In this document: piece by piece, positions 62 through 22,707 of the stretch
Layout: each line of letters starts with the position of its first letter
Numbering within the stretch: position 1 is the first letter of the stretch
Virus record (IMG/VR): IMGVR_UViG_3300035670_001175
Coordinates: 1-25,031 of that record
Source: a virus
Length of the DNA stretch: 25,031 nucleotides
Strand: one strand, 5' to 3'
The notes under the pieces: generated by a model
Database searches by the model: none
Told to the model about the DNA's origin: nothing
What the model saw: only the letters and a program-made list of their open reading frames with translations
Program-made: the position numbers and the translations under genes

Positions 62-463
62 ATGGACCGCTGCTGCGACCACTGCGGCGCCCCGTACCGA
101 GCGCAGCGGTCCACATCCCGGTTCTGCTCGGGAGCGTGCCGCACGGCGGCCGGTCGCAGGCCCCGCAAGGCCGCCCCCGTGGTCACCATCGAGGCTCCAC
201 GACCCCCGGCCGGTGATATCGAGGCTGCCACCTTGCGGGAACTGACCGCGGCCGGCGTGGAGCACTCCGCAGCAGGCGCCCGAGCTCTGGCTATGGCCCG
301 CCTGATCGACTCCCCGGCCCCGGGCACGTTCGGTGCCATCGCCGGCTGGTCCCGCGAGCACTCCGCCGCGCTGGCCGAGGCGCTGCGCACCGACCAGGTC
401 GTGCAGTCCACGTCACTCGCCGACCAGTTGAAGGCCCGCAGGGATGCCCGTCGGGGCGCTTGA
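62..463 (+). CDS. Putative terminase small subunit with N-terminal zinc finger
   Basis: This 133-residue protein lies directly before the large terminase and overlaps it by 20 bases, the usual place of the DNA-recognition subunit of the packaging motor. The N-terminus carries a Cys-x2-Cys ... Cys-x3-Cys pattern (CDHC at residues 5-8, CSGAC at 22-26) followed by basic residues, which suggests a small zinc-binding, DNA-contacting module. Residues 55-130 are Ala-rich and helical, ending in a basic tail. A perfect ribosome binding site at 48-55 fixes the start. The zinc-finger layout resembles that in the HNH gene at 8443. Assignment as small terminase rests mainly on position; an accessory DNA-binding protein is the alternative. 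Confidence 0.6.
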   Translation: MDRCCDHCGAPYRAQRSTSRFCSGACRTAAGRRPRKAAPVVTIEAPRPPAGDIEAATLRELTAAGVEHSAAGARALAMARLIDSPAPGTFGAIAGWSREHSAALAEALRTDQVVQSTSLADQLKARRDARRGA

Positions 464-1916
464 GGGCATCGCCCCGGCGTGGTCGTGGGTTCCTGACTAC
501 CACGACACCCTCGGCCCGGAGGTCGCAGAGCTGTGCGAGGCGGTCGGGTTCTACCCGGACCCGGAGCAGCGGCTGGCCCTGGATGCCACGTTCGCGTTCC
601 AGCGCGGCGGCAAGTCGGCCACCCGCGACGTGGGGCTGTGCGCCCCGCGGCAGAACCTCAAGACCGGGTTCCTGAAGATGGCAACCCTCGGGTGGATGTA
701 TGTGCTGGAGACCCGGCTGGTCGTCTGGTCCGCACACGAGTTCCGCACGTCGCAGGAAGCGTTCCGCGACATGTGCATCCTGATCGAGGACAACCCGGAA
801 CTGGACCGCGAGGTGCTGCGGACCACCCGCGGCAAGACCGGGATCAGCCGCGGCAACGGCGACGAGGCCATCGAGCTCCGCGGGGACCGGCGGCTGGTGT
901 TCAAGGCGCGCACGAAGGCCGGCGGCCGTGGTTTGACCGGGGACCGGGTGGTCCTTGACGAGGCCATGCTGCTCAAGCCGGACATGATGGCCGCCCTGGT
1001 GCCCACCCTGCGCGCCCGCCCGGACCCCCAGTTGGTGTTCGCCGGGTCGGCGGGGCTGCTGGAGTCCGACATCTGGCGCACCGTCCGCGACCGGGGCCGG
1101 GCCGGCGGGGATCCGTCGCTGGCGTGGCTGGAGTGGGGCGACCCGGATGCGTGGTCCGGGTGCGCGGACGCCAATTGCCTGCACCTGTACGGCGAGTCCG
1201 GGTGCGCGATGGACGACGAGGACCGCTGGTGGCGCACGAACACCGCGTTGGGCAAGCGGATCAGCGTGGAGTCGTTGCGGACGGACCGCCGACTGTTGCC
1301 GCCGATCAAGTTCGCCACCGAGACGTTGGGCTGGTGGGAGGACCCGCCGGACGACGAGCAGGGCGACGACATCCTGGCCAACTGGGACACCTGCGCCGAC
1401 GTGAAGGCCCAGACGGCGGGTGCGGTGCATCTGGCGGTGGTGGTGGCGCACAACCTCAAGGCAGCGTGCATCGTGGCCTGCGGGGCTGGTGCGGACGGCC
1501 TGCCGGTGATCGACGTGGTCGACTACCGGCGCACAGGCACCGCGTGGGTGCCTGACCGGCTCGCAGAGCTGCGGGAGCGGCACACCGTGACCTCGGTGGG
1601 GGTGGTGGCCGGGAGCCCTGCAGCGAGCCTCCTGCCACTACTCCCCGACGACATCACGGTCATCTCCGGTGTGGACTTCGCCGCCGCCTGCTCCGCGCTG
1701 GCGCAGGACGTGGACAACGCCGCGCTGCGCCACCTCGGCCAGCAGACCCTGACGATCAGCGTGGCGAACGCGGTTCGCAGGTTCGCCGGGGACGGGTGGC
1801 GCTGGTCGCTGAAGGAATCCACCTCCGACATCAGCCCACTGCATGGGGCGGTGGTCGCTCGGCACCTGTGGGCGATCACGGAGGAGTACGACCCTCTGGC
1901 GAACTTCCTGCCATAG
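444..1916 (+). CDS. Terminase large subunit (packaging ATPase/nuclease)
   Basis: This 490-residue protein is the motor that pumps DNA into the prohead through the portal. The ATPase domain has a Walker A-like segment APRQNLKTG at residues 67-75 and Walker B VVLDEA at 169-174, with an arginine/lysine-rich stretch just before it. The C-terminal half has the layout of the RNase H-like nuclease of TerL, including the DISPL segment at 462-466 and the Asp of GVDFAAA near 411. However, the positions where motif I and II acidic residues normally sit read AVVVAHN (331-337) and VVAGSPA (387-393). The start overlaps the preceding gene, so translation is probably coupled. Confidence 0.93.
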   Translation: MPVGALEGIAPAWSWVPDYHDTLGPEVAELCEAVGFYPDPEQRLALDATFAFQRGGKSATRDVGLCAPRQNLKTGFLKMATLGWMYVLETRLVVWSAHEFRTSQEAFRDMCILIEDNPELDREVLRTTRGKTGISRGNGDEAIELRGDRRLVFKARTKAGGRGLTGDRVVLDEAMLLKPDMMAALVPTLRARPDPQLVFAGSAGLLESDIWRTVRDRGRAGGDPSLAWLEWGDPDAWSGCADANCLHLYGESGCAMDDEDRWWRTNTALGKRISVESLRTDRRLLPPIKFATETLGWWEDPPDDEQGDDILANWDTCADVKAQTAGAVHLAVVVAHNLKAACIVACGAGADGLPVIDVVDYRRTGTAWVPDRLAELRERHTVTSVGVVAGSPAASLLPLLPDDITVISGVDFAAACSALAQDVDNAALRHLGQQTLTISVANAVRRFAGDGWRWSLKESTSDISPLHGAVVARHLWAITEEYDPLANFLP

Positions 1917-1942: not shown

Positions 1943-2812
1943 ATGAGGGCACTGGTATCCGGCGACGCCGGATTCATCGGCCGCAACTTCACCCGACTGC
2001 TGACCGCGGACGGGTGGGACGTGGTCGGCTTCGACATCAAGACCGGGACGGACGCCCGCGACTGGTTCCCCACCAGCGCGGAGCACTTCGACCTGCTGGT
2101 GCACGCTGCCGCGGTGGTCGGCGGCCGGCAGTCCATCGACGGTGACCCGCTGGGCATCGCGCAGAACATGGGCATCGACCACGCCGCCCTGTCATGGGCG
2201 GTTCGCACCAGCACCCCGGTCTTGTACTTCAGCAGCTCCGCCGCCTACCCGGTGGGCCTGCAAGTCGCGCAGGGCCACCCGCTGCAGGAGTGGGATCTGC
2301 GCCCGGACGGCAAGATCAGCCCCCCGGACCAGACGTACGGCTGGTCGAAGGTCACCGGCGAGGTGATGGTGGACGCCGCCCGCAAGGCCGGGGCCACCGT
2401 CAGCGTGGTCCGCCCGTTCTCCGGGTACGGCACCGACCAGGACCTCGACTACCCGTTCCCGTCGTTCATCGACCGGGCGCTGCGCGGCGCTGACCCGTTC
2501 GAGGTGTGGGGCGACGGCGGGCAGGTGCGGGACTTCATCCACGTGGACGACGTCTACAACGCCTGCATGAACATCCTCGACAGCGGCACCACCGACCCGG
2601 TGAACCTATGCACCGGGGTCGGCACCTCGTTCCTCGACCTCGCCCGGATGGTCACCAAGGCGGCCGGGTACACCCCGTCCATCGAGTGTCTGACCGACAA
2701 GCCCACCGGCGTCCGCTACCGGGTGGGCGATCCGACCCGGATGCGCCGCTACTGGGAACCCAAGGTCACCCTGCGCGAAGGCATCGAGCGGGCGCTGGAC
2801 GGTGCCCTGTGA
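1943..2812 (+). CDS. NAD-dependent epimerase/dehydratase (extended SDR), first copy
   Basis: This 289-residue protein is a nucleotide-sugar enzyme of the extended short-chain dehydrogenase family, like UDP-glucose 4-epimerases and GDP-fucose synthases. The N-terminal Rossmann loop reads GDAGFIG (residues 7-13), the catalytic serine region is SSSA at 97-100, and the YGWSK catalytic Tyr/Lys pair is Y132/K136. The RDFIHVDDV segment, typical of the family's sugar-binding half, follows. The ATG at 1943 is chosen because AGGGAGG lies eight bases upstream and the Rossmann motif begins at once; the frame stays open further upstream but without domain sequence. It opens a cassette of four sugar genes. 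The exact sugar substrate cannot be read from sequence. Confidence 0.9.
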   Translation: MRALVSGDAGFIGRNFTRLLTADGWDVVGFDIKTGTDARDWFPTSAEHFDLLVHAAAVVGGRQSIDGDPLGIAQNMGIDHAALSWAVRTSTPVLYFSSSAAYPVGLQVAQGHPLQEWDLRPDGKISPPDQTYGWSKVTGEVMVDAARKAGATVSVVRPFSGYGTDQDLDYPFPSFIDRALRGADPFEVWGDGGQVRDFIHVDDVYNACMNILDSGTTDPVNLCTGVGTSFLDLARMVTKAAGYTPSIECLTDKPTGVRYRVGDPTRMRRYWEPKVTLREGIERALDGAL

Positions 2813-3486
2813 TGGCCGGGATGGTGGTGCTGGTCCCGTCCCGCACCCGCCCCGGGAACATCGCCCGCCTGCTGCAGGCGTGGCGGGACACCGGCGCCAC
2901 CGCCGACCTCGTGGTGCTGGTCGACGACGACGACCCCGACCTGCCCGGCTACCGCGAGGTGACCGGCAGCGGTGTGGCCGACCTAGTGGTGGGACCACGG
3001 CAACGGATCGGCCCGCTGGTCAACCAGCACGCGCTGGCACTGGCGGCCACGTACGACGTGGTGGCGTTCATGGGCGACGACCACTGCCCACGGACACCCG
3101 GATGGGACGAGAAGATCCTCGACGCATCCAGCCCGTGGTCGGTGGTCTACGGCGACGACCTGTTCCAGCGGGAGAAACTGGCCACCGCGGTGTTCATGGG
3201 CGGCGCACTGGTCCGCGAACTCGGGTACTTCAACGTGCCCGGCTGCGACCACCTCTACCTCGACAACGGGTGGATGACTGTCGGCCGGGAGTTGGGCACC
3301 CTGACCTACCTGCCCGATGTGGTCATCGAGCACGTGCACTACCTCAACGGCAAGGCCCCGCAGGACGCGCTCTATGCGGAGGTCAACGATCCGACCATGT
3401 ACGCCCACGACCGGGCCGCGTTCGCGGCGTGGGCCAACGGTCCGGCGGACTCCGACCTGCAGCGCGTGCGAGAGGCGATGGCATGA
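2812..3486 (+). CDS. Glycosyltransferase-like protein (GT-A fold), first of cassette
   Basis: This 224-residue protein starts with a beta strand and VPSRTRPGN, typical of nucleotide-sugar-binding GT-A glycosyltransferases. Acidic stretches VDDDD (37-41) and MGDDH (87-91) are candidates for the DxD metal and nucleotide-sugar site. The His-rich IEHVHY segment in the C-terminal part would fit the acceptor or metal-binding side. The ATG overlaps the preceding stop as TGATG and the stop overlaps the next ATG as ATGA, so the three genes are translationally coupled. Donor sugar and acceptor are unknown. The fold assignment comes from motif pattern only. Confidence 0.75.
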   Translation: MAGMVVLVPSRTRPGNIARLLQAWRDTGATADLVVLVDDDDPDLPGYREVTGSGVADLVVGPRQRIGPLVNQHALALAATYDVVAFMGDDHCPRTPGWDEKILDASSPWSVVYGDDLFQREKLATAVFMGGALVRELGYFNVPGCDHLYLDNGWMTVGRELGTLTYLPDVVIEHVHYLNGKAPQDALYAEVNDPTMYAHDRAAFAAWANGPADSDLQRVREAMA

Positions 3487-4298
3487 GGATCCTGGTCACC
3501 GGCGGCAGTGGGTTCATCGGCCGGGCTGTCGCCCGCGAGCTGGAGTCCCGCGACATCGGGCATGTCACCTTCGACCGCCCGCTGGATGTCCGCGACGCCC
3601 ACCAGATCAGCAACAACCTGACCGGCATCACCGGGGTCATCCACCTTGCCGGGGCGCTGGGCACGTCGGAGACCTTCGGCCATGAGCACGACGTGGCCGA
3701 CGTGAACATCCTCGGCGCGCTCACGGTGGCCGACCAGTGCGAACGCCGGCGGATCCCGATGGTGTGGATCGGCACCGGGCACTACGGGCAGCCCAACCCG
3801 TACGCCATCACCAAGGCGTGCGCGCAGGATCTGCTGCTGGCCCGCGGCAACGTGGCCATCGTCAAGGCGTACCACGCCTACGGCCCGGGGCAGAAGTCCT
3901 ACCCGCCGCACGGCAAGGGCCACGTTCGCAAGATCATGCCCTCGTTCGTGAACCGGGCGCTGACCGGGATGCCGCTGGAGATCCACGGCGACGGGTCGAA
4001 CATCATCGACCTGGTGCACGTGGATGAGGTGGCCCGGGTGCTGGTCGACGCCCTCGACGGACCCACTGGGGTGGTGCTGGAGGCGGGCACCGGGCTAGGG
4101 CTGGATGTGCGGTCCGTGGCCGAGTCCGTGATCAAGATGACCGGCAGCAGCTCGGAGATCGTGCACCTGCCGATGCGCCCCGGTGAGCCCGAGGGCGCGG
4201 TGGTGGTCGCGCAGGAGCCGCTGTGCGCCGACCGGCCGTTCCCCTACGGGATGGCGGCCACCATCGAGCACTACGCGGCGGCCCTGGATGCCCGCTGA
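3483..4298 (+). CDS. NAD-dependent epimerase/dehydratase (extended SDR), second copy
   Basis: This 271-residue extended SDR has GGSGFIG at residues 7-13, an HLAGALG segment in the nucleotide-binding core, and a YAITK Tyr/Lys pair at Y107/K111. The serine usually seen before the Tyr is replaced by a Thr-containing IGTGHYG stretch. Downstream NIIDLVHVDEVAR matches the family's conserved R/N-x-x-D-x-x-H-V-D-D-V region. It is clearly diverged from the first copy at 1943, so the pair probably catalyses two different steps, for example dehydration then reduction or epimerisation of one nucleotide sugar. That pathway reading is inference. The ATGA overlap with the preceding glycosyltransferase indicates one operon. 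Confidence 0.9.
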   Translation: MRILVTGGSGFIGRAVARELESRDIGHVTFDRPLDVRDAHQISNNLTGITGVIHLAGALGTSETFGHEHDVADVNILGALTVADQCERRRIPMVWIGTGHYGQPNPYAITKACAQDLLLARGNVAIVKAYHAYGPGQKSYPPHGKGHVRKIMPSFVNRALTGMPLEIHGDGSNIIDLVHVDEVARVLVDALDGPTGVVLEAGTGLGLDVRSVAESVIKMTGSSSEIVHLPMRPGEPEGAVVVAQEPLCADRPFPYGMAATIEHYAAALDAR

Positions 4299-4953
4299 CG
4301 TCGTCCTGACGTGGCTGCTGAATGCCACCCCGGACCCGCAGCGGGGCACCCACCTCGCCGGGGATGTGTCCCTGCTGGCGGTGCTGCGGGACAGCGTCCA
4401 CCGCCACGGCCGGCACCTGATCGTCCTGCACGACTGTCTCGGTGAGCCCGACGACGACCTGACCACGTTCGTGGCCGTCCCGTCCGGGGGCAACCCGTAC
4501 TTCCACCGCTGGGCTGTGACCGCGCACTACCTGACCGATCACCCGGAGATCGAGCGGGTGTGGTGTGTGGACGGCACCGACGTGGAGATGCTGCACGACC
4601 CGTTCCCGCACATGGTCCCCGGGTTGTTCTACTGCGGGTCGGACCCGTCGTCGCTGGGGGGCACCCCGGAGGCGGCATGGCTGGCCAAGCACTGCCACAG
4701 CACCCGCACGTGGCAGGAGCAGCACAAGCACCTGACCATGCTCAACGTCGGCACCCTCGGCGGGGATAGGGCCACCGTGCTCGACATCGCCACCCAACTG
4801 GCTGCCGCCGAGGCCGACGGGGACGACTGGGAGATGGGCGCGTTCCAGCGGATCGTCTACGAGCAGTACCCCGACCACGTGACCGGCCCGATGGTGCACA
4901 CCGTGCTGCGCCGCATGGACCGCGATTCCCCCGCCTGGTGTCGGCACAAGTGA
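4288..4953 (+). CDS. Putative glycosyltransferase-like protein, last of sugar cassette
   Basis: This 221-residue protein overlaps the epimerase by 11 bases. The chosen ATG gives a clean N-terminal beta strand (VVLTWLLNATPD); the frame is open upstream but yields only Arg/Pro/Ser-rich shadow sequence. A VWCVDGTDVEML segment at residues 91-102 resembles the strand plus DxD of GT-A enzymes, and GNPYFHRW and MLNVGTLGG segments resemble parts of proteins that find donor and acceptor. I do not recognise a named family. The operon context with two nucleotide-sugar enzymes and another glycosyltransferase supports a sugar-transfer role. A non-enzymatic relative is possible. Confidence 0.6.
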   Translation: MPADVVLTWLLNATPDPQRGTHLAGDVSLLAVLRDSVHRHGRHLIVLHDCLGEPDDDLTTFVAVPSGGNPYFHRWAVTAHYLTDHPEIERVWCVDGTDVEMLHDPFPHMVPGLFYCGSDPSSLGGTPEAAWLAKHCHSTRTWQEQHKHLTMLNVGTLGGDRATVLDIATQLAAAEADGDDWEMGAFQRIVYEQYPDHVTGPMVHTVLRRMDRDSPAWCRHK

Positions 4954-4967
4954 CCTCAGGAGGCCGC

Positions 4968-5093
4968 GTGAAGTACGTCCCCGGCGTCCTCGGCGCCCTG
5001 CTCGTCTGCGTCGGGCTGGCGTTCATCTTCTGGCCGGTGGCCATCATCGCCGCGGGCGGGTTCCTGCTGGCCGTCGATAGGCGGATGACCTGA
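4968..5093 (+). CDS. 41-residue hydrophobic membrane peptide
   Basis: A GTG start at 4968 is preceded by AGGAGG at 4958-4963 and the stop overlaps the portal ATG as TGATG. The peptide begins MKYVPG, then runs as a hydrophobic stretch (about residues 5-35, broken by a Trp-Pro near the middle), and ends in DRRMT. This looks like one long or two short membrane segments with a basic tail. The good ribosome binding site and the exact fit between neighbours support a real gene. Function is unknown; it might anchor or accompany the preceding sugar-transfer proteins at the membrane, which is speculation. Confidence 0.65.
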   Translation: MKYVPGVLGALLVCVGLAFIFWPVAIIAAGGFLLAVDRRMT

Positions 5094-6274
5094 TGGGACT
5101 GTTTTCCGGGTCACGCGCCGCCGTCGTTGAGCGCAGCACCCCGCCCACCGTGTCGTCGCAGACGTTCGCCGGGTTCAACTTCGCCGCCCTCACCCTGCCA
5201 GAGGTCACCCAGACCGCGGCCAGCCAGTCCATCGCCATCCGCTCCGCGGTGGACCTGATCTGTTCGCTGATGTCAGAACTGCCGATCCACGTGTATCGCG
5301 GCGAGGGCGCATCCCGCACCAAGCTGCCGCTGCCCGGCAACCTGCAGGACCCCGGTAACACCGGGTACGGCATCGAGGACTGGATCTACACACTGGGCCA
5401 GTCGTGGCTGTACCGCGGGAACGTGATCGGCGCCGAGGTCGCGTGGCAGCGCAACGGAAACGCCGCGCAGATCGAGATCTGGCATCCCGACGACGTGACC
5501 GTGCAGATGCGCGAGGGCACCCCCGTCTGGTACCTCAACGGGTCCCCGTACACCCGCCAAGACCTGGTCATGCACGACCGGGCCAACCCCATCCCCGGTC
5601 GGGTCATGGGCATGTCCCCGATCCACGAGCACTCCACGGCCATCGGCACCGCGCTGGCGTCCACCAAGTTCGGGTCCCAGTGGTTCCGCGACGGCGCGCA
5701 CCCGTCCGCGCTGCTGGTCAACTCCGAGGCGCAGATCGACGCCCTGACCGCGAACGTGGTCAAGGAGCGGTGGATGGGGCTGTTCCGCGGCTCCCGTGAG
5801 CCCGCGGTGCTCGGCAAGGGCTGGGACTACAAGCCCATCAGCGTCACCGCGGAGGAGTCCCAGTTCCTGGAGACCATGCGGTACACGGAGACCCAGTGCG
5901 CGCGCATCTTCGGGCCGGGAGTGGCCGAGATCCTCGGCTACGAGACCGGGCACTCCATGACCTACGTCACCGTGGTGGACCGCCGCTCCGACCTGCTGCA
6001 GTTCACGCTCAACAAGTGGCTGCGGCGCACCGAACGGATCCTCACCAACCTGCTGCCCGCCCCCCAGTACGTCCGGTTCGACCGAGACGCGCTGCTGGAG
6101 TCCGCGACCCTCGCCCGCTACGAGGCGCACGCCAAGGCGCTGCAGAACCGCTGGAAGACCGTCAACGAGGTTCGCGCCGACGAGGATATGGCGTCCGTCC
6201 CGTGGGGCGACGAACCGAACGACGCGGGGACGCCCGCCGGCTCAGGAGGAACAGATGACGCAACTCACGCGTGA
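5093..6274 (+). CDS. Portal protein (HK97-like)
   Basis: This 393-residue protein matches the HK97-type portal, the dodecameric ring at the head vertex through which DNA enters and leaves. Recognisable family features are the N-terminal AIRSAVDLICSLMSELPIHVY helix (about residues 46-66), the GNVIGAEVAWQRNG wing segment, the DLVMHDRAN strand followed by GMSPIHEHSTAIGTAL (about 160-190), and the stem-region ARIFGPGVAEILGYE (about 269-283) before TLNKWLRRTERILTNLL. The length is near the family norm. It lies directly before the protease and capsid genes and overlaps the protease by 20 bases, the classical head operon order. Confidence 0.93.
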   Translation: MGLFSGSRAAVVERSTPPTVSSQTFAGFNFAALTLPEVTQTAASQSIAIRSAVDLICSLMSELPIHVYRGEGASRTKLPLPGNLQDPGNTGYGIEDWIYTLGQSWLYRGNVIGAEVAWQRNGNAAQIEIWHPDDVTVQMREGTPVWYLNGSPYTRQDLVMHDRANPIPGRVMGMSPIHEHSTAIGTALASTKFGSQWFRDGAHPSALLVNSEAQIDALTANVVKERWMGLFRGSREPAVLGKGWDYKPISVTAEESQFLETMRYTETQCARIFGPGVAEILGYETGHSMTYVTVVDRRSDLLQFTLNKWLRRTERILTNLLPAPQYVRFDRDALLESATLARYEAHAKALQNRWKTVNEVRADEDMASVPWGDEPNDAGTPAGSGGTDDATHA

Positions 6275-6917
6275 GTTCACCTCGGACATTGAGATCCGCG
6301 CAGACGGGACCGGGCGCACCGTGCACGGCATTCTCGTCCCCTACGGGCAGGTCGCCCGGGTGTCCGACGGCGGCCCCGCCTACGACGAGGAGTTCGCCCC
6401 CGGTGCGTTCGCCCGCGACCTCGCCGCCCGCGCCGGCAACTACGGCGGGGTGAAGTTCCTGTACCAGCACAACCGCACCGAACCAATCGGGCGGGCCATC
6501 GACCTCCGCGAGGACGGCGCCGGGCTGTACGGGTCGTTCAAGATCAGCGACACCGTCCGCGGCAACGAAGCCCTGGAACTCCTGCGCGACGGGGTGCTGG
6601 ACTCGTTCAGCATCGGGTTCAAGCCGCTGCAGGAGGACTACCGCGGTGGGGTCACCGTCCGCACCAAGGCCGCCCTGCGCGAGACCAGCCTGGTCACCTT
6701 CCCCGCCTACGCCGGAGCCCTCGTGGCCGGGGTACGCAACCTCACCGATGAGGACATCGAGACCTCCCCCGACCTCGGGGGATCGGCTGACACCACCGCA
6801 CCAGAGGTGCGCGCGGACCAGCCAGAACCCACGCCTGACTCGGACTCGGCCCCGGCCACTCCACTCGGCGGACTGACGCCAGCGCAACGGCGCCTGCGTC
6901 TCATCCCAACGCACTGA
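6255..6917 (+). CDS. Prohead maturation protease (HK97 family)
   Basis: This 220-residue serine protease would cleave the capsid protein scaffold domain inside the prohead. The core covers residues 1-160: His72 in LYQHNRTEPIG, Ser119 in DSFSIGF, and Glu143 in LRETSLVTFPAYAGA match the His/Ser/Glu arrangement of the HK97 protease family. The last 60 residues are Pro/Asp-rich and poorly ordered, probably removed or used in scaffold contacts. AGGAGG lies just before the ATG at 6255 inside the portal gene, supporting the overlap. Confidence 0.92.
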   Translation: MTQLTREFTSDIEIRADGTGRTVHGILVPYGQVARVSDGGPAYDEEFAPGAFARDLAARAGNYGGVKFLYQHNRTEPIGRAIDLREDGAGLYGSFKISDTVRGNEALELLRDGVLDSFSIGFKPLQEDYRGGVTVRTKAALRETSLVTFPAYAGALVAGVRNLTDEDIETSPDLGGSADTTAPEVRADQPEPTPDSDSAPATPLGGLTPAQRRLRLIPTH

Positions 6918-6928
6918 GAGGAAACACC

Positions 6929-8314
6929 ATGCCCAACATTGACGTGGTGCTCGCCCGGCTCGATGAGATCGAGACCGAGTTCCGCACCATCAACACCGAG
7001 GTGGGCGACCGCTCCCTCAACGACGACGAGCAGACCCGCTGGGAGGCCCTTGAGGCCGAGCACGCCGAGCTGCGCGCATCCGCCGACAAGATGAAGGCCG
7101 ACGCCGACCGCGCCGCCCTCGTCGCCGAGCAGCGCGCCCGCTGGGGCTCGCTCCAGGTCGGCACCACGGTTACCACCGCCGACGACACCGACATCCGCTC
7201 CCTGTCCCGCGGCGAAGCGCGTGACCGGGCCATGAAGCGCATGGAGGTCGAGGCCCGCGGCCTCGACCTGTCCGCGGACAACCAGCACCGCATCGAGAAG
7301 ATCATCGGCACCCGCAGCGACCACCTCGACGGTGACCTCGTCGCCCGGGCGCTGCTGGCCACCGAGCGCCCGGCCTACAAGTCGGCATTCGGCAAGGCCA
7401 TCGCCGGACAGCATGGGTTCACCCCTGACGAGGCCCGCGCCCTCGACGAGGCCCGCGCCGCGTCCCTGACCTCCGGCAACGGCGGCTACGGCGTGCCGGT
7501 CCTCATCGACCCGACCATCGTGCTCACCGCGCAGGAGTCGCTGTCCGCCGTTCGGCAGATCTCCACGGTTATCCCCGTCACCACGAACGTGTGGAAGGGC
7601 GTCACCTCGGCCGGGGTCACCTGGTCATGGGACGCGGAGGCCGCAGCCGTAAGCGACGATGCGCCGACCCTGGTTCAGCCGTCGATTACGACCTACGCTG
7701 CCCGCGGCTTCATCCCCTACTCGATTGAGATTTCGCAGGACTACCCGTCCTTCGCTGAGGAGTTCGGGCGCCTGCTCTCGGAGGGCTACGACGAGCTTCG
7801 TGCTGCCGCGTACGTCACCGGGTCCACCCCCATCGGCATCCTGACGGCGCTCGACGCCAACACCAACGTCGAGGTGACGCCCACGACTGACGGATCGTTC
7901 GCAGCAGTGGACATCGACAAGGTGTGGACCGCGCTTCCTGACCGGGCCAAGCGCAACGCGACCTGGCTCATGTCTTCAGATGTCTCGTCTTACATCGGGA
8001 TCTGGGGTGACGCATTTGGTGGACAGACCGTTGATCTCGCTGGCGTGCCCACCACGCTCCGTGGCCGTCCCATCGCCATCGACTCGGCGATGCCGTCCTT
8101 CACCGGAACCACTGGCGCCTCGAACATCCTCATCGTGGGCGACTTCAAGCGCTTCTATGTGATCGAGCGCATGGGCATGTCGGTGGAACCCATCCAGATG
8201 CTGTTCGACGTGACGACCAACATGCCGACCGGCCAGCGCGGCATCTTCGCGATGGCTCGGGCGGGGTCCGACTCGATCGACGACGACCGCTTCAGGCTCC
8301 TTCAGAACGCCTGA
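6929..8314 (+). CDS. Major capsid protein (HK97 fold)
   Basis: This 461-residue protein forms the icosahedral shell. The first 75 or so residues are charged and helical (DEIETEFRTINTEV and following), typical of the scaffolding delta domain cut off by the upstream protease. The region after about residue 180, with GGYGVPVLIDPTIV, QESLSAVRQISTVIPVTTN and WSWDAEAAAVSDDAPTLVQ, is the HK97-fold N-arm, E-loop and P-domain pattern. TGQRGIFAMARAGSDSIDDDRF closes the protein as in relatives. The second half is less GC-rich than the flanking genes (for example 34 of 60 at 7681-7740). GAGAGG precedes the ATG, and tandem hairpins follow the stop. Confidence 0.95.
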   Translation: MPNIDVVLARLDEIETEFRTINTEVGDRSLNDDEQTRWEALEAEHAELRASADKMKADADRAALVAEQRARWGSLQVGTTVTTADDTDIRSLSRGEARDRAMKRMEVEARGLDLSADNQHRIEKIIGTRSDHLDGDLVARALLATERPAYKSAFGKAIAGQHGFTPDEARALDEARAASLTSGNGGYGVPVLIDPTIVLTAQESLSAVRQISTVIPVTTNVWKGVTSAGVTWSWDAEAAAVSDDAPTLVQPSITTYAARGFIPYSIEISQDYPSFAEEFGRLLSEGYDELRAAAYVTGSTPIGILTALDANTNVEVTPTTDGSFAAVDIDKVWTALPDRAKRNATWLMSSDVSSYIGIWGDAFGGQTVDLAGVPTTLRGRPIAIDSAMPSFTGTTGASNILIVGDFKRFYVIERMGMSVEPIQMLFDVTTNMPTGQRGIFAMARAGSDSIDDDRFRLLQNA

Positions 8315-8974: not shown

Positions 8975-9195
8975 GCATTGTCATCGCATTGCAGAGCGCG
9001 TCCGTGTTCACACCGGGGAACCGGTACCCGGCGAACGTCCGCAAGGGCGAGGCGTGGCATTCGGAGTCGGCCATCGTGAAGGCCCAGCCGAGTCTGTTCA
9101 GCGCGGATGAGTCGCTGGCGAAGGGTGCCCCCGAGCGCCAGCCGCAGCCCGCGGCAGCCAAGTCGCCCAAGGTGCTGCGTCGTGGCCAAGCCTAA
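8971..9195 (+). CDS. Conserved small protein downstream of capsid
   Basis: This 74-residue protein overlaps the HNH stop as ATGA and has its own AGAGGAGA ribosome binding site upstream. The central part, GEAWHSESAIVKAQPSLFSAD (about residues 26-46, here shortened in function to a G-E-x-W ... V-K-A-x-P-x-L-F pattern), resembles small proteins found after the capsid gene in many actinophages. The C-terminal 25 residues are Pro/Ala/Lys-rich. Its role is not known; a minor head component is one possibility. Separation from the capsid gene by the HNH gene suggests that the HNH was inserted between them. Confidence 0.7.
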   Translation: MSIVIALQSASVFTPGNRYPANVRKGEAWHSESAIVKAQPSLFSADESLAKGAPERQPQPAAAKSPKVLRRGQA

Positions 9196-9952
9196 GAAGT
9201 CCAGCCGGGTCTCCGTGGAGCGGACCGGCGACACGATGGTGGCGTGGGTGCACTCCGAGTGGGTGGCGCACAGCTGGTTCCAGTCGATCCTCGCCCTGGT
9301 GATGACCTCCCCGCGGGTGGGGCCGTACACGGCGATGAAGTGCGGCACCGACGGTCTGGTGGCCGCCCGGAACAAGACGGTGGAGGCGTTCCTGTCGTCC
9401 CCAGCGGAGTGGTTGTTCTGGATCGACACGGACATGGGCTTCGCCCCGGACACGGTGGACCGCCTGCTGTCGGTGGCCCACCCGGAGGCCGCGCCCATCG
9501 TCGGAGCCCTGTGCTTCGCCAACCGGGAGACCCACACCGACGGGTTCGGCGGGTACCGCTGCCGGGCGGTGCCGACGGCGTTCAAGTGGGTGGAGATCCC
9601 CGCGGATGACAAGACGCCGATGATGAACGGCTTTCAGCCGATCTGGGACTACCCGCGCGACGAGGTGATCCCCGTCGCCGGCACCGGGTCGGCGTGCATC
9701 GTGATCCACCGCTCGGTGTTCGAGAAGGTGCAGGCCGCGGACGGTGGGAAGCCGTCCTGGTACAACCGGCTGACCAACCCGACCACCAATCAGGTCATCG
9801 GCGAGGACTTGTCGTTCTGCTACCGGGCGGCGATGGCTGGTGTGCCCATGTTCGTGGACACGGGGACGAAGACCACCCACCTGAAGCCGATCTGGTTGCA
9901 GGAGGGCGACTACGAGATGCCGGTGTTCGACAGTGTGATGGAGGCCGGATGA
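9182..9952 (+). CDS. Glycosyltransferase (GT-A, DxD motif)
   Basis: From the GTG at 9182 the protein has 256 residues. The segment GLVAARNKTVEAFL (58-71) followed by WLFWIDTDMGF (77-87, DxD at 82-84) is the classic donor-binding core of GT-A glycosyltransferases. GAGTGSACIVIHRSVF-like VAGTGSACIVIHR (165-177), GED at 207-209 and His233 in TTHLK fit the catalytic and metal-binding second half. The start is uncertain: the frame is open upstream, and an ATG at 9236 is an alternative. It lies just before two genes with Thr/Ala/Ser-rich repeats, possible acceptors, and is separate from the sugar cassette at 1943-4953. Confidence 0.82.
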   Translation: MAKPKKSSRVSVERTGDTMVAWVHSEWVAHSWFQSILALVMTSPRVGPYTAMKCGTDGLVAARNKTVEAFLSSPAEWLFWIDTDMGFAPDTVDRLLSVAHPEAAPIVGALCFANRETHTDGFGGYRCRAVPTAFKWVEIPADDKTPMMNGFQPIWDYPRDEVIPVAGTGSACIVIHRSVFEKVQAADGGKPSWYNRLTNPTTNQVIGEDLSFCYRAAMAGVPMFVDTGTKTTHLKPIWLQEGDYEMPVFDSVMEAG

Positions 9953-11748: not shown

Positions 11749-14700
11749 GTGACCCTCAAGCAGGTCCGCGGCTCCGCGGTCGACGCCACCAGCGGCACCA
11801 CGTGGGGCACCACGTCCAACGCGGTGGACGGGTCGTACGCGGGGTCGTCGTCAACGGACAGCACGGCGGCGACGTGGACGAGCGCGGCCCGTAACGTCGA
11901 CGCGAACATCGACATCGGCGGGTTCGACGGGTCGGGCAAGTTCGGTGACATCCCCGCCGGGGCGACGATCAACACGGTCACCATCTACGTGCGGCACTCC
12001 GAGTCGGACACGACCCGTATCGACCTCGCCAACGTGTCGGCGTTCGACGGCGGCACCCAGATCGGGTCCACGCAGTCGATGACCCGCAGCACGTCGGCGG
12101 TGAACTACTCCACGACGGCGATCACCCCGACGCTGGCCCAGTTGCAGTCCACCGGGTTCCACATCCAGATCGACTTCAGCCGGTCGAACCAGACCGTGTC
12201 CACGGTCGCGTCGCTGTTCAACGTGGACATCGAGGTCGACTACACGGCGATCACCGTGCAGGAGACCACCGCCTCGGTGTCGGTGACCCCGACCACGGAG
12301 GCCACGGGGGTCCGGGCGCGGGTGTCGGATGCCGCCCTGACGGTGGACCCGGCGACCGCGGCGGAGGGCGAGCGGGTCGCGGCCGGGGTCACCCATGAGG
12401 CCACCGCCGCCCTGACGGTCGACCCGGCGACGGCGGCGACCGGGGCGAAGGTTCACGAGACTACCGCCAGCTTGACCATTGGCGAGTCCGGTGGTGGGTC
12501 GACGGCGTACCGGACCTCGACGGCGTACCGCACCTCGCTGAACTACCGCGGGGTGACGACCGGCGGCACGTCCACGCTGACATTCACCGCGACCGGGGAG
12601 ATCCCCGACGGCACCACGAAGACGGCCACGGCGTCGGTTGATGTCACCCCAGCCACGGCGGCCACCGCGGGCGCCTCCAACAAGTCCACGACCGCCACCC
12701 TGGACCCGACGCCGACGACCGCCGCCACGGCGGGCGCGGTGGAACGGCCCACCACGGCCAGCCTGACAGTCGCCCCGGCGACCAGCGCCTCGGGCACCAA
12801 GGTCCAGTCCACTGACGCCTCCCTGACGGTCACCCCGGCGATCGCCGCCGAGGCCACCTCGAACACCGCGCAGTCGACGACGGCTAGCCTGGACCCCACG
12901 CCGGCCACCGCGGCCGCGGGTGTGCGGGTTGTGGACACGACGGCCAGCGCCAACGTCACCCCGACGGTGACGACGGCGGACGATCGCAGCGCCTCGACAA
13001 CCGCTGCCCTGACCGTCGTTCCAGCGCTGTCGGCGACCGCCGTCCGCGAGCAGTCGACCGATGCCAGCCTGACCGTCACCCCCACGACCAGCGCCACCGC
13101 CGGAGCCAGCAGCAAGTCGACGACGGCCAGCCTGACGGTGGACGTGGCCACGTCGGCGGCAGCTGTCCCGACCCAGTCGGCCACCGCGTCGCTGGACCTG
13201 TCCCCGACGATCACCACCACCAACGACCGCACCGCGGCCACCACCGCCAGCGTGGACGCAACCCCGGCCACGGCGGCGACGGCCGTCCGCGAGCAGTCCG
13301 CGACGGCATCGCTGGACCCGACCCCCACGGCCTCGGCCACCGCGGGGGCCAGCGACAAGAGCACCACCGCAAGTCTCGCGGTCGCCCCGACCGTCGAGGC
13401 CTACGCCACCCCGATGCAGTCGGCGACCGCGTCCCTGACCATCGGGGACACGGGCACGGCGGGGACCGCCTACGACGCGGCGGTCGCCTACGACGCGGCC
13501 ACCGCCTACGACGGTGGCACGGGCGCGGGCAACAGCCTGACCCTGTCGGCCACGGGCACCGCGGAGAAGTCCACCACCGCCACGGTGGACACAACCCCGG
13601 CACTGTCGGCGACCGCGGGCGGGTCGGAGAAGTCCACCACCGCGTCCCTCGACGTGGCCCCGGTTCTGGAGGCGCACGCCACGCCCACGCAGTCGGCGAC
13701 GGCTGCGCTGACACTGGCGCCCAGCATCACGGCGACGGTGACCCGCTCCGCGGACACCACCGCTGCGTTTGCCGTCGAGGTGGCGACGAGCGCCACGGCA
13801 ACCCGGGTCCAGGCCACGGATGCGTCGCTCACCGTCGCACCGACCACGGCGGCAACGGCCGGGGCGTCGGACAAGTCCACGACGGCTGCCCTGACGGTCA
13901 CTCCGGCGACAGAGGCGTTCGCCACCCCCACCCAGTCGACCACCGCGGCCCTCGCTCTCGCCCCGACAGCCGCGGCCACCGCCACAGCGGAGAAGTCGAC
14001 CACGGCGGCGCTGGATGCCACGCCAGGGACCGCGGCCACGTCCACAGCGGTCAAGGACGCCACGGCCACCCTCACGGTGGAACCGACCGCCGCGGCGACC
14101 GCACTGCGCGAGCAGTCGACCGACGCGGCCCTGACCGTCACTCCGACGACCAGTGCAACCGCGGGGGCCAGCGACAAGTCCACCACCGCGCCCCTGACTG
14201 TCACCCCGGCGACGACCGCGGAGGCCACCGCCGAGGCCGGTGGGGTCACCCACGAGACCACCGCCAGCCTGACCGTCACCCCGGCCGCGGCGGCGGAGGC
14301 GCAGCGCACCGCGGACACCACCGCAGCCCTGACCGTCGCTCCCGCGACAACGGCTGAGGCGGTCCGAGCTCGCGAGACCACGTCGTCGCTCATGGTCACC
14401 CCGGCGACCACCGCGGAGGCGGTGCGCGCCCGGGTCGCCGACGCAGCCCTGACCGTCACCCCGTCCACCGCCGGGACCACCACGAGGTCCGCAGACACCG
14501 CCGCCGACCTGACCGTGGACATGGTGCTGGCGGCCATGGTGGACCGCACCGCGGACACCGCCGCGATCCTGGCCATCAACCCGGCGCTGGCCGCGCTCGC
14601 CGTCACCCAGTACGACGGCAAGGCGGGCGCGTACAGCCCCGCAGCCATCGGTGCGACCCAGAACCTCAACCCGCCCCGCGGAACCGCCTACGCCCCCGGC

Positions 14701-14787
14701 AGGGCGCTCGCTGGGGCCGTTGCGGGGGCAGCCTCCGGCGCCACCTCATGGAACGTGCCACCGACAGCGAAGGGGACCGACCCGTGA
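11749..14787 (+). CDS. Giant Ala/Thr/Ser-rich repeat protein, probable virion fibre
   Basis: This 1012-residue protein starts at GTG 11749, 17 bases after the previous stop. Residues 1-171 form a beta-rich domain (AVDGSYAGSSSTDSTAATW, IDIGGFDGSGKFG, ITVYVR-like strands) resembling a jelly-roll or carbohydrate-binding module. Residues 172-954 hold about 35 units of roughly 20 residues with consensus [ST]T[AD][AS]LTV[AT]P-T-[AS]-A-T-A, interrupted by two Tyr-rich inserts near 245-291 and 566-607. The C-terminal 58 residues contain AYSPAAIGATQN and a Gly/Ala/Pro tail. Cysteine is absent. It is likely a long extended fibre or surface decoration; position before the connectors favours the head over the tail tip. 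Function is inference. Confidence 0.75.
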   Translation: MTLKQVRGSAVDATSGTTWGTTSNAVDGSYAGSSSTDSTAATWTSAARNVDANIDIGGFDGSGKFGDIPAGATINTVTIYVRHSESDTTRIDLANVSAFDGGTQIGSTQSMTRSTSAVNYSTTAITPTLAQLQSTGFHIQIDFSRSNQTVSTVASLFNVDIEVDYTAITVQETTASVSVTPTTEATGVRARVSDAALTVDPATAAEGERVAAGVTHEATAALTVDPATAATGAKVHETTASLTIGESGGGSTAYRTSTAYRTSLNYRGVTTGGTSTLTFTATGEIPDGTTKTATASVDVTPATAATAGASNKSTTATLDPTPTTAATAGAVERPTTASLTVAPATSASGTKVQSTDASLTVTPAIAAEATSNTAQSTTASLDPTPATAAAGVRVVDTTASANVTPTVTTADDRSASTTAALTVVPALSATAVREQSTDASLTVTPTTSATAGASSKSTTASLTVDVATSAAAVPTQSATASLDLSPTITTTNDRTAATTASVDATPATAATAVREQSATASLDPTPTASATAGASDKSTTASLAVAPTVEAYATPMQSATASLTIGDTGTAGTAYDAAVAYDAATAYDGGTGAGNSLTLSATGTAEKSTTATVDTTPALSATAGGSEKSTTASLDVAPVLEAHATPTQSATAALTLAPSITATVTRSADTTAAFAVEVATSATATRVQATDASLTVAPTTAATAGASDKSTTAALTVTPATEAFATPTQSTTAALALAPTAAATATAEKSTTAALDATPGTAATSTAVKDATATLTVEPTAAATALREQSTDAALTVTPTTSATAGASDKSTTAPLTVTPATTAEATAEAGGVTHETTASLTVTPAAAAEAQRTADTTAALTVAPATTAEAVRARETTSSLMVTPATTAEAVRARVADAALTVTPSTAGTTTRSADTAADLTVDMVLAAMVDRTADTAAILAINPALAALAVTQYDGKAGAYSPAAIGATQNLNPPRGTAYAPGRALAGAVAGAASGATSWNVPPTAKGTDP
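12262..14610 (+). repeat. Tandem array of about 35 degenerate 60-base coding repeats
   Basis: Counting by eye the [ST]TA[AS]LTVxP unit gives about 35 copies over 783 codons, with 20 or 21 residues each. A higher-order pattern of about four units is visible, in which unit ends run VREQ, then TAGASxK, then A-T-P-T-Q. The copies differ in third positions, so the array is old or under selection and not a fresh expansion. It could still vary in length by recombination. Confidence 0.85.
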
Positions 14788-21233: not shown

Positions 21234-21631
21234 TGTGGGGCGCCGGACTGGAACACCTCGCCCTACTGTTGACCATCATCGGCTCCGCGCTGGGCATCCG
21301 CAAGGGCATCAAGGTGTGGCGCGCGGAGTCCATCGCCGCCATCGAGGCGCGCGCTGAGCAGCAGCGCACCATCGACCAGATCGCCGCCGAGTTCAAGCCC
21401 CGCAACGGCAAGACCCTCGCCGAGGTTGTGGCCAAGATCGACGCCTCCGTCACCGACCACCACGTCAAGGCCGACAAGTGGTTCCAGGAGAACGCCGACG
21501 CGCACAAGGAGATCCACCGCCGCATCGACGGGCTGTTCCAGTTGGAGGCCGGGCGCGGGTCCACCCAGCCCCGCAAGATCGCCGAATGGCACAGGGTCAA
21601 GGCCGAGCGGGAAGAGGAGGACCCGACGTGA
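21221..21631 (+). CDS. Membrane-anchored coiled-coil protein (DUF2746-like)
   Basis: This 136-residue protein has an N-terminal membrane segment (LEHLALLLTIIGSALGI, about residues 10-26), then a long charged helix (AESIAAIEARAEQQRTIDQI and on to KWFQENADAHKEIHRRIDGL). Single-pass, helix-rich proteins of this kind are common near fibre and lysis genes of actinophages, for example DUF2746. The start at 21221 has no clear ribosome binding site, and ATG 21233, overlapping the micro-frame stop, is a credible alternative. It could help anchor a tail component, or act in lysis. The DUF2746 similarity is a layout judgement only. Confidence 0.6.
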   Translation: MGTLMWGAGLEHLALLLTIIGSALGIRKGIKVWRAESIAAIEARAEQQRTIDQIAAEFKPRNGKTLAEVVAKIDASVTDHHVKADKWFQENADAHKEIHRRIDGLFQLEAGRGSTQPRKIAEWHRVKAEREEEDPT

Positions 21632-22707
21632 CCCTGCGCCCCCGCCAGCCGGCCGTCGCCCGCATCAACCAGTCCCGCGCCCGCATGGCCCCCGGCGGGC
21701 GCCGCTGGTCGGAGTCCCCGATCCCCCGCCCCGGGGTGCGCCGAGTTCGGCAGGTGGGCGGGCTCTACGGGTGGACCCCGAATTCCACCGGGCTCACCGG
21801 GGGCGAGGTCGCGATGGGCATCGGGTACGGCGACGGCGTATGGGTCATCGTCGGCGAGGACGGCTTTCTCGCCACCGCCACCGACCCCACGGGAACGTGG
21901 ACCGCGCGCACGTCGAACCTGCCCAGCCACGGGTACACGGTGGCCTACGCGGGCGGCGTGTGGGTGGCCGCGGGCGCGGCTGGCGGACTCGCCACCGCCA
22001 CCGACCCCACCGGAACCTGGACCGCCCGCACCTCGTCGTTCGGGACCGATGCCGTCAAGTGGGTGGCCCACGACGGCACCACATGGGTGGCTGTCGGGGA
22101 GAACGGGGAGATGGCCACCGCCACCGACCCCACCGGAACCTGGACCGCCCGCACCTCGTCGTTCGGGACGACCGTGATCAACAGCGTCGCCTACGGCGGC
22201 AGCACATGGGTGGCTGTCGGCGACTCGGGGAAGTCGGCCACCGCCACCACCCCCACCGGCACATGGACGGCGCGCACCTCCCTGCAGACAGCGGTGGCGT
22301 GGGTGGCCGTGAGCTGCGTCGCACACGACGGCACGACGTGGGCCGCCGGAGGGATTGGGCGGGCTCTCGCCACCGCCACCGACCCCACCGGAACCTGGAC
22401 CGCCAACACGGCGGGCGCACCCGACGACCCCGCATCTGATGACGAAGACCTGTACGGGCTCACCTACGCGGGCGGCTATTGGCTGGCGTCGCTGACGGTG
22501 GGCAACAGCGCATGGATAGCCACCGACCCGACCGGGACGTGGACCCGAGTCAACCTGGGATTCGACACCCCACCGGAGACGAACTACGCCAATGTCCACG
22601 CTCTGGCCAACTACGCCGCCTACGGGGACGGGGTGTGGGTGGCCATCGACTACGGCGTCGACACGGTATCCACCGCCACTGACCCCACCCGGCCAGTGGC
22701 GACTTGA
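21628..22707 (+). CDS. Fibre with predicted seven-bladed beta-propeller
   Basis: The GTG at 21628 overlaps the previous stop as GTGA and gives 359 residues. Residues 1-45 are basic (TLRPRQPAVARINQSRARM) and may attach to the tail. Residues 46-359 hold seven units with the pattern YGDGVWVIVGEDGxxATATDPTGTWTART, about 40 residues each. The first six end with GTWTxxT; the seventh breaks off at ATDPTRPVAT. A matching YGWTPNSTG strand stands before unit 1 and could complete the last blade (velcro closure). Such propellers bind glycans or proteins, so it is a candidate receptor-binding protein. Ligand is unknown. Confidence 0.78.
   Translation: MTLRPRQPAVARINQSRARMAPGGRRWSESPIPRPGVRRVRQVGGLYGWTPNSTGLTGGEVAMGIGYGDGVWVIVGEDGFLATATDPTGTWTARTSNLPSHGYTVAYAGGVWVAAGAAGGLATATDPTGTWTARTSSFGTDAVKWVAHDGTTWVAVGENGEMATATDPTGTWTARTSSFGTTVINSVAYGGSTWVAVGDSGKSATATTPTGTWTARTSLQTAVAWVAVSCVAHDGTTWAAGGIGRALATATDPTGTWTANTAGAPDDPASDDEDLYGLTYAGGYWLASLTVGNSAWIATDPTGTWTRVNLGFDTPPETNYANVHALANYAAYGDGVWVAIDYGVDTVSTATDPTRPVAT
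21991..22046 (+). repeat. 56-base exact repeat in propeller gene, copy 1
   Basis: This stretch codes ATATDPTGTWTARTSSFG plus one base and recurs without change 123 bases later (22114-22169). It marks a recent blade duplication or gene conversion. Confidence 0.85.
22114..22169 (+). repeat. 56-base exact repeat in propeller gene, copy 2
   Basis: Second copy, in frame and exactly one blade (41 codons) after the first. Shorter matches occur in the blades beginning near 21871 and 22370. Confidence 0.85.

Follow-up and report, generated by a model that had tools for sequence, protein, structure and literature searches.

The question raised by this locus is what a set of putative sugar enzymes does in the midst of the DNA-packaging and head genes of a phage. 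The window, i.e., the whole 25,031-base stretch of DNA that was analyzed, is an IMG/VR record of the linear class and probably comes from an uncultured actinobacterial phage; DNA identity with known phages is limited to short matches of ~70% that are confined to one gene of the set, SDR2. The set holds up as a genuine cassette of sugar-nucleotide enzymes and glycosyltransferases that looks functional, and its most likely role is virion glycosylation. Systems of this kind are already known in mycobacteriophages; the cassette is ordinary in kind and new in detail.

A four-gene cassette between terminase and portal

The original prediction placed four genes, SDR1, GT1, SDR2, and GT2, at positions 1943–4953 between the terminase and portal genes, and all four were confirmed at that place, on the plus strand. 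The features of the locus are as follows.

444–1916, plus strand: TerL, large terminase subunit (phrog_9, 2.5e-49)
1943–2812, plus strand: SDR1, extended SDR of the NAD-epimerase family, 289 aa (PF01370, 8e-30; phrog_540, a phage nucleotide-sugar epimerase family, 3.8e-54; Ser98-Tyr132-Lys136)
2812–3486, plus strand: GT1, GT-A glycosyltransferase with a GT2/GT27-like fold, 224 aa (phrog_14945, 4.9e-49; model pLDDT 97)
3483–4298, plus strand: SDR2, second extended SDR, 271 aa (PF01370, 3.9e-27; phrog_540, 2.8e-32; Thr98-Tyr107-Lys111; active-site loop shortened)
4288–4953, plus strand: GT2, GT-A glycosyltransferase with a GT6-like fold, 221 aa (phrog_1579, 2.7e-46; model pLDDT 91; invariant DGTD)
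4968–5093, plus strand: 41-aa hydrophobic ORF, putative membrane peptide, between the cassette and the portal gene and overlapping the portal start (60% identity next to the cassette in contig L003)
5093–6274, plus strand: portal (PF04860, 3.3e-51)
6929–8314, plus strand: major capsid protein, HK97 type, candidate acceptor (PF05065, 8.9e-25)
9182–9952, start uncertain, plus strand: GT3, third glycosyltransferase-like protein, downstream of the major capsid gene (phrog_34859, 1e-11)

The portal gene is followed by a protease-like ORF, the HK97-type capsid gene, an HNH gene, and GT3. The cassette genes had been described as all coupled by ATGA or TGATG overlaps. This holds for the SDR1/GT1 junction, where TGATG is common to both genes (2810–2814), and for the GT1/SDR2 junction, where ATGA is shared (3483–3486), but SDR2 and GT2 overlap by 11 nt instead.

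Two extended SDR enzymes

Both SDR proteins carry the GxxGFIG and YxxxK motifs from which they were first recognized, as GDAGFIG and YGWSK in SDR1 and as GGSGFIG and YAITK in SDR2. Against a PF01370 cut-off of 20.9 bits, SDR1 scores 104 bits and SDR2 96 bits. Profile and motifs place the two proteins among the extended SDR/NAD-dependent epimerases, and the GxxGxxG and YxxxK motifs of SDR1 are found in 149/149 viral homologues. The loss of active-site residues that would count against a sugar-enzyme reading was not seen in either protein. Ser98, Tyr132, and Lys136 of SDR1 are kept in all 229 homologues (149/149 viral and 80/80 genomic), and Tyr107 and Lys111 of SDR2 are invariant in 81/81.

The best characterized sequence match of SDR1 is GDP-L-fucose synthase (Fcl/WcaG; NCBIfam, 94.5 bits; PDB 7ll6, 7.5e-22), with which it has the Ser-Tyr-Lys triad in common. 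This specific assignment was rejected, however. The score lies far under the 500-bit equivalog cut-off, and Cys109 and His179, the epimerization pair of GDP-L-fucose synthase, align with Ala100 (Ala in 229/229 homologues) and Tyr170 of SDR1. NDP-hexose 4,6-dehydratases (RmlB/GMD) are marked by an acid pair (Asp/Glu) that follows the catalytic Thr, and their equivalog cut-off is 365 bits. This assignment was rejected for both proteins: SDR1 has Ser98-Ser99-Ala100 and 67.7 bits, SDR2 has Thr98-Gly99-His100 and 52.7 bits, and the acid pair is missing from each. Because SDR1 keeps Ser-Tyr-Lys and has neither the Cys/His pair nor the acid pair, SDR1 is probably an epimerase or a ketoreductase whose substrates are sugar nucleotides supplied by the host. 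Given what is generally known of the extended SDR family, the likeliest chemistry for SDR1 and SDR2 alike would be C4 epimerization or keto-reduction of a nucleotide sugar from the host. The chemistry of SDR2 is uncertain because its catalytic Thr98, which is Thr in 26/81 members of the wider family, is Val in 53/81.

SDR2 was also considered as a UDP-glucose dehydrogenase and rejected in that role, as no UDPGDH family was among its listed Pfam and NCBIfam matches up to E = 1 and the matches were of SDR/epimerase types. The label "UDP-glucose dehydrogenase" is attached to SDR2 relatives in Microbacterium and Streptomyces phages (L007, 2393–3307; L008, 6001–6951). Both align to an SDR/epimerase protein, and judging from these alignments the label is likely a propagated misannotation. 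The SDR2 family is common in viral contigs, with glycosyltransferase-like, SDR, and methyltransferase families nearby (the glycosyltransferase identities were judged by eye from sequence).

The original prediction further held that the phage could make and transfer its own sugar. The enzyme classes agree with this, but the idea of synthesis from scratch does not stand as well: with no acid pair in either SDR, modification of a host sugar nucleotide is likelier.

Three glycosyltransferase-like proteins

Pfam returned only a sub-threshold Glycos_transf_2 match for GT1 and no match for GT2, and a search of both against PDB sequences gave no usable match. The PHROGs families of the two proteins are glycosyltransferase families, and structural models agree. 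AlphaFold models, for which related viral proteins were aligned (44 sequences for GT1, 17 for GT2), reached pLDDT values of 97.2 and 90.6, and among the Foldseek and VIA matches listed, both models matched GT-A glycosyltransferases only. The listed matches of GT1 are GT2/GT27-type enzymes, with GalNAc-T2 as the top VIA match (Z 17.4, 209 residues, 3.0 Å). Those of GT2 are GT6 enzymes, among them BoGT6a (VIA Z 16.8, 202 residues, 3.5 Å), with 7–12% identity between the GT2 model and BoGT6a or GTA/GTB. WrtF and others come within ~1 Z unit of the GalNAc-T2 match; because several other glycosyltransferases score close behind, the donor and acceptor of GT1 and GT2 are unreadable from the fold. An invariant DxD-like acidic motif accompanies the GT-A fold in each protein, as GDDH in GT1 and as DGTD in GT2 (17 sequences), which identifies both as GT-A enzymes.

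A third glycosyltransferase-like gene near 9182 was also confirmed. Homology in GT3 starts near 9227, inside the annotated start at 9182, and a protein with 84% identity is found in contig L006. In the cassette relatives and in many other contigs, GT3 lies directly after the major capsid gene. Some contigs carry GT3 as two tandem copies (L077, L085, L170, L171, L174, and L176).

The predicted sugar-nucleotide and transferase classes are well supported: profiles and fold matches agree with them, the catalytic residues are conserved, and the cassette recurs in other contigs. No family outside the sugar enzymes gave a better match. One use for such enzymes would be DNA modification, in which the transferases decorate a modified base of the phage genome and provide protection from nucleases. 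Phage glycosyltransferases that act on DNA are known (cited in PMC12619734). The window is a fragment of the genome and does not contain its replication half, where a base-modifying enzyme may lie, and early genes that modify DNA or the cell surface may likewise fall outside it. Nonetheless, this use is improbable: no DNA-glycosyltransferase family appears as a best match, the cassette sits with head genes, and among 40 related GT1/SDR1 records, some perhaps fragments, Tet/JBP genes occur in three and thymidylate-synthase-like genes in four.

Conservation of the cassette and a GT1–SDR1 core

A survey of related phages, which the original prediction had proposed, found all four genes together in two other viral contigs in the rotated order GT1–SDR2–GT2–SDR1. 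In L003, the cassette is again between TerL and portal, with identities of 67% for GT1, 90% for SDR2, 51% for GT2, and 77% for SDR1. In L004, it lies ahead of a protease-like ORF and a capsid gene, with identities of 67%, 88%, 55%, and 74%, respectively. Pairwise dN/dS against these two contigs is ~0.2 for SDR2, 0.4 for SDR1, 0.45 for GT1, and 0.7 for GT2. These values, together with homologues of all four genes in many contigs, indicate that the frames are not chance. All pairs are below 1, and the cassette genes are under purifying selection.

The rotated gene order and the uneven divergence, from 90% in SDR2 to 51% in GT2, are signs of mosaic exchange. They would fit a passenger metabolic island (moron) that has no dedicated virion or host target and is kept via gene flow. 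This is the least probable explanation considered, given selection on all four genes and a GT1–SDR1 pair that has been repeatedly retained across 88 divergent clusters.

That pair forms a recurrent core. GT1 is present in 78/80 viral contigs found via SDR1, SDR1 is present in 67/80 found via GT1 at the same bit cut-off, and after dereplication at 90% identity, GT1 accompanies SDR1 in 86 of the 88 SDR1 clusters. Clustering showed that in 47 loci a methyltransferase family is inserted between the two core genes, as would fit sugar tailoring; another such family takes this place in 10 loci. In L005, a GT1 homologue is fused to a SAM-methyltransferase-like domain (6001–7302), and another methyltransferase-like ORF and then SDR1 come after it. 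The "DNA methyltransferase" label of phrog_2675 probably stems from this fusion. The GT1–SDR1 core lies within 3 kb of a capsid gene in 11/24 records (5.9 expected) and in 4/17 when contigs of at least 20 kb are considered (2.6 expected), a weak enrichment that is not clearly above chance.

The core extends to chromosomes. GT1 is beside SDR1 in all 15 actinobacterial chromosomal SDR1 matches and in 0/65 in other bacteria or archaea, where four of the SDR1 relatives examined adjoin polysaccharide glycosyltransferase or export genes. Portal matches occur in 4/14 genomes with chromosomal GT1–SDR1 loci, mostly without placement at the locus. At least one locus is a clear prophage, with a capsid relative beside the pair (L261). 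These chromosomal pairs, and the surface-polysaccharide neighborhoods of cellular SDR1 relatives with GT4, GT2, WecG, and Poly_export genes, raise the alternative of host-surface modification, in which sugar is placed onto glycopolymers of the host cell wall or envelope, perhaps as a block to superinfection. This alternative is unlikely, though a better candidate than DNA modification. The cassette is in a packaging/head operon that is expected to be late, GT1 to GT3 are short soluble GT-A proteins, and no flippase or lipid-linked partner was recognized among the window genes examined.

Relation to known phage glycosylation systems

Virion glycosylation is reported for the mycobacteriophages Che8, Rita, Corndog, and Myrna (Freeman et al. 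2023, as cited in later papers), and capsid-protein glycans are reported for Rita and Che8 (PMC11256854). Che8 gp110 and Corndog gp38 are phage glycosyltransferases reported to be essential for capsid glycosylation (PMC12363180). The C-terminal domain of Rita gp101 is 37% identical to GT2 of the window over 98% of GT2 length, whereas the Che8 glycosyltransferases gp108–110 show no BLAST similarity to those of the window. The arrangement also differs, as the glycosyltransferase genes of Rita and Che8 lie at the right end of the genome and have no SDR neighbor, in contrast to the two SDRs and two glycosyltransferases found here between terminase and portal.

In Microbacterium phage Magritte, genes 5–8 include an SDR2 relative (39%, labeled UDP-glucose dehydrogenase) and then two glycosyltransferases, upstream of the terminase gene. 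The Magritte transferases are of other families (PF04488 and GNT-I-like) with an HNH gene between them, its SDR2 relative has Val in place of Thr98, and no SDR1 orthologue was found in the stretch examined. Streptomyces phage Phredrick carries a GT1 relative (phrog_14945 type, 43%) in gp77–79 beside another glycosyltransferase and a nucleotidyltransferase. This one sits among replication genes and has no SDR neighbor in the stretch examined, unlike GT1 of the window, which SDRs adjoin.

Virion glycosylation as the favored role

The favored reading is a late-expressed virion-glycosylation cassette that places a glycan on the phage's own particle, with a probability of roughly 60% and a predicted acceptor. 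A virion target is favored because of the late-operon position, the capsid-adjacent GT3, and the GT2 relative in Rita, a phage with a reported glycosylated capsid. SDR1 and SDR2 would convert host sugar nucleotides to the needed donor by epimerization or keto-reduction, and GT1 and GT2 would assemble a short glycan on one of the structural proteins while particles form, with GT3 possibly adding a further transfer step. In this model, the specific reaction, the sugar, the sequence of transfer steps, expression late in infection, and any advantage to the phage are all predictions. The acceptor would most likely be the capsid and/or the tail tube. The cassette is retained in L004 although the capsid there is 36% identical.

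A broader proposal, put forward tentatively and somewhat doubtful as yet, is that the GT1–SDR1 core, with optional methyltransferases, SDR2, and GT2, is a widespread undescribed glycan module of actinobacteriophages. Such a module might supply a dedicated, perhaps unusual donor sugar for a multi-residue virion glycan, and exchange of its enzymes among phages might diversify the surface of the particle. In the literature searched (open-licence full texts), no description of the four-gene arrangement or of the widespread core was found. So far, only a few mycobacteriophages are documented to have virions glycosylated by phage-encoded transferases. A cassette with its own sugar-nucleotide enzymes, and a core that recurs in actinobacterial chromosomes and in dozens of viral contigs of divergent sequence, would suggest that many phages of actinobacteria have particles coated with glycans. 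The cassette also supplies named genes for tests in cultured Streptomyces or Microbacterium phages.

Two repeat proteins of the window are of separate interest. A 1012-aa protein at 11749–14787 carries a 20-aa repeat rich in Thr, Ser, and Ala (STTASLTVTPTTSATAGASDK type) in ~36 degenerate copies and is mucin-like (Thr 22%, Ser 9%); it has no PHROG match. In this phage, it may serve as a glycan acceptor. As an obligatory acceptor it was rejected, since it is missing at this position in the closest cassette relative (G001/L330), where GT3 is followed directly by connector genes. In the tail region, a protein at 21478–22707 has ~40-aa repeats (TATDPTGTWTARTSSFGT) that look beta-propeller-like by eye.
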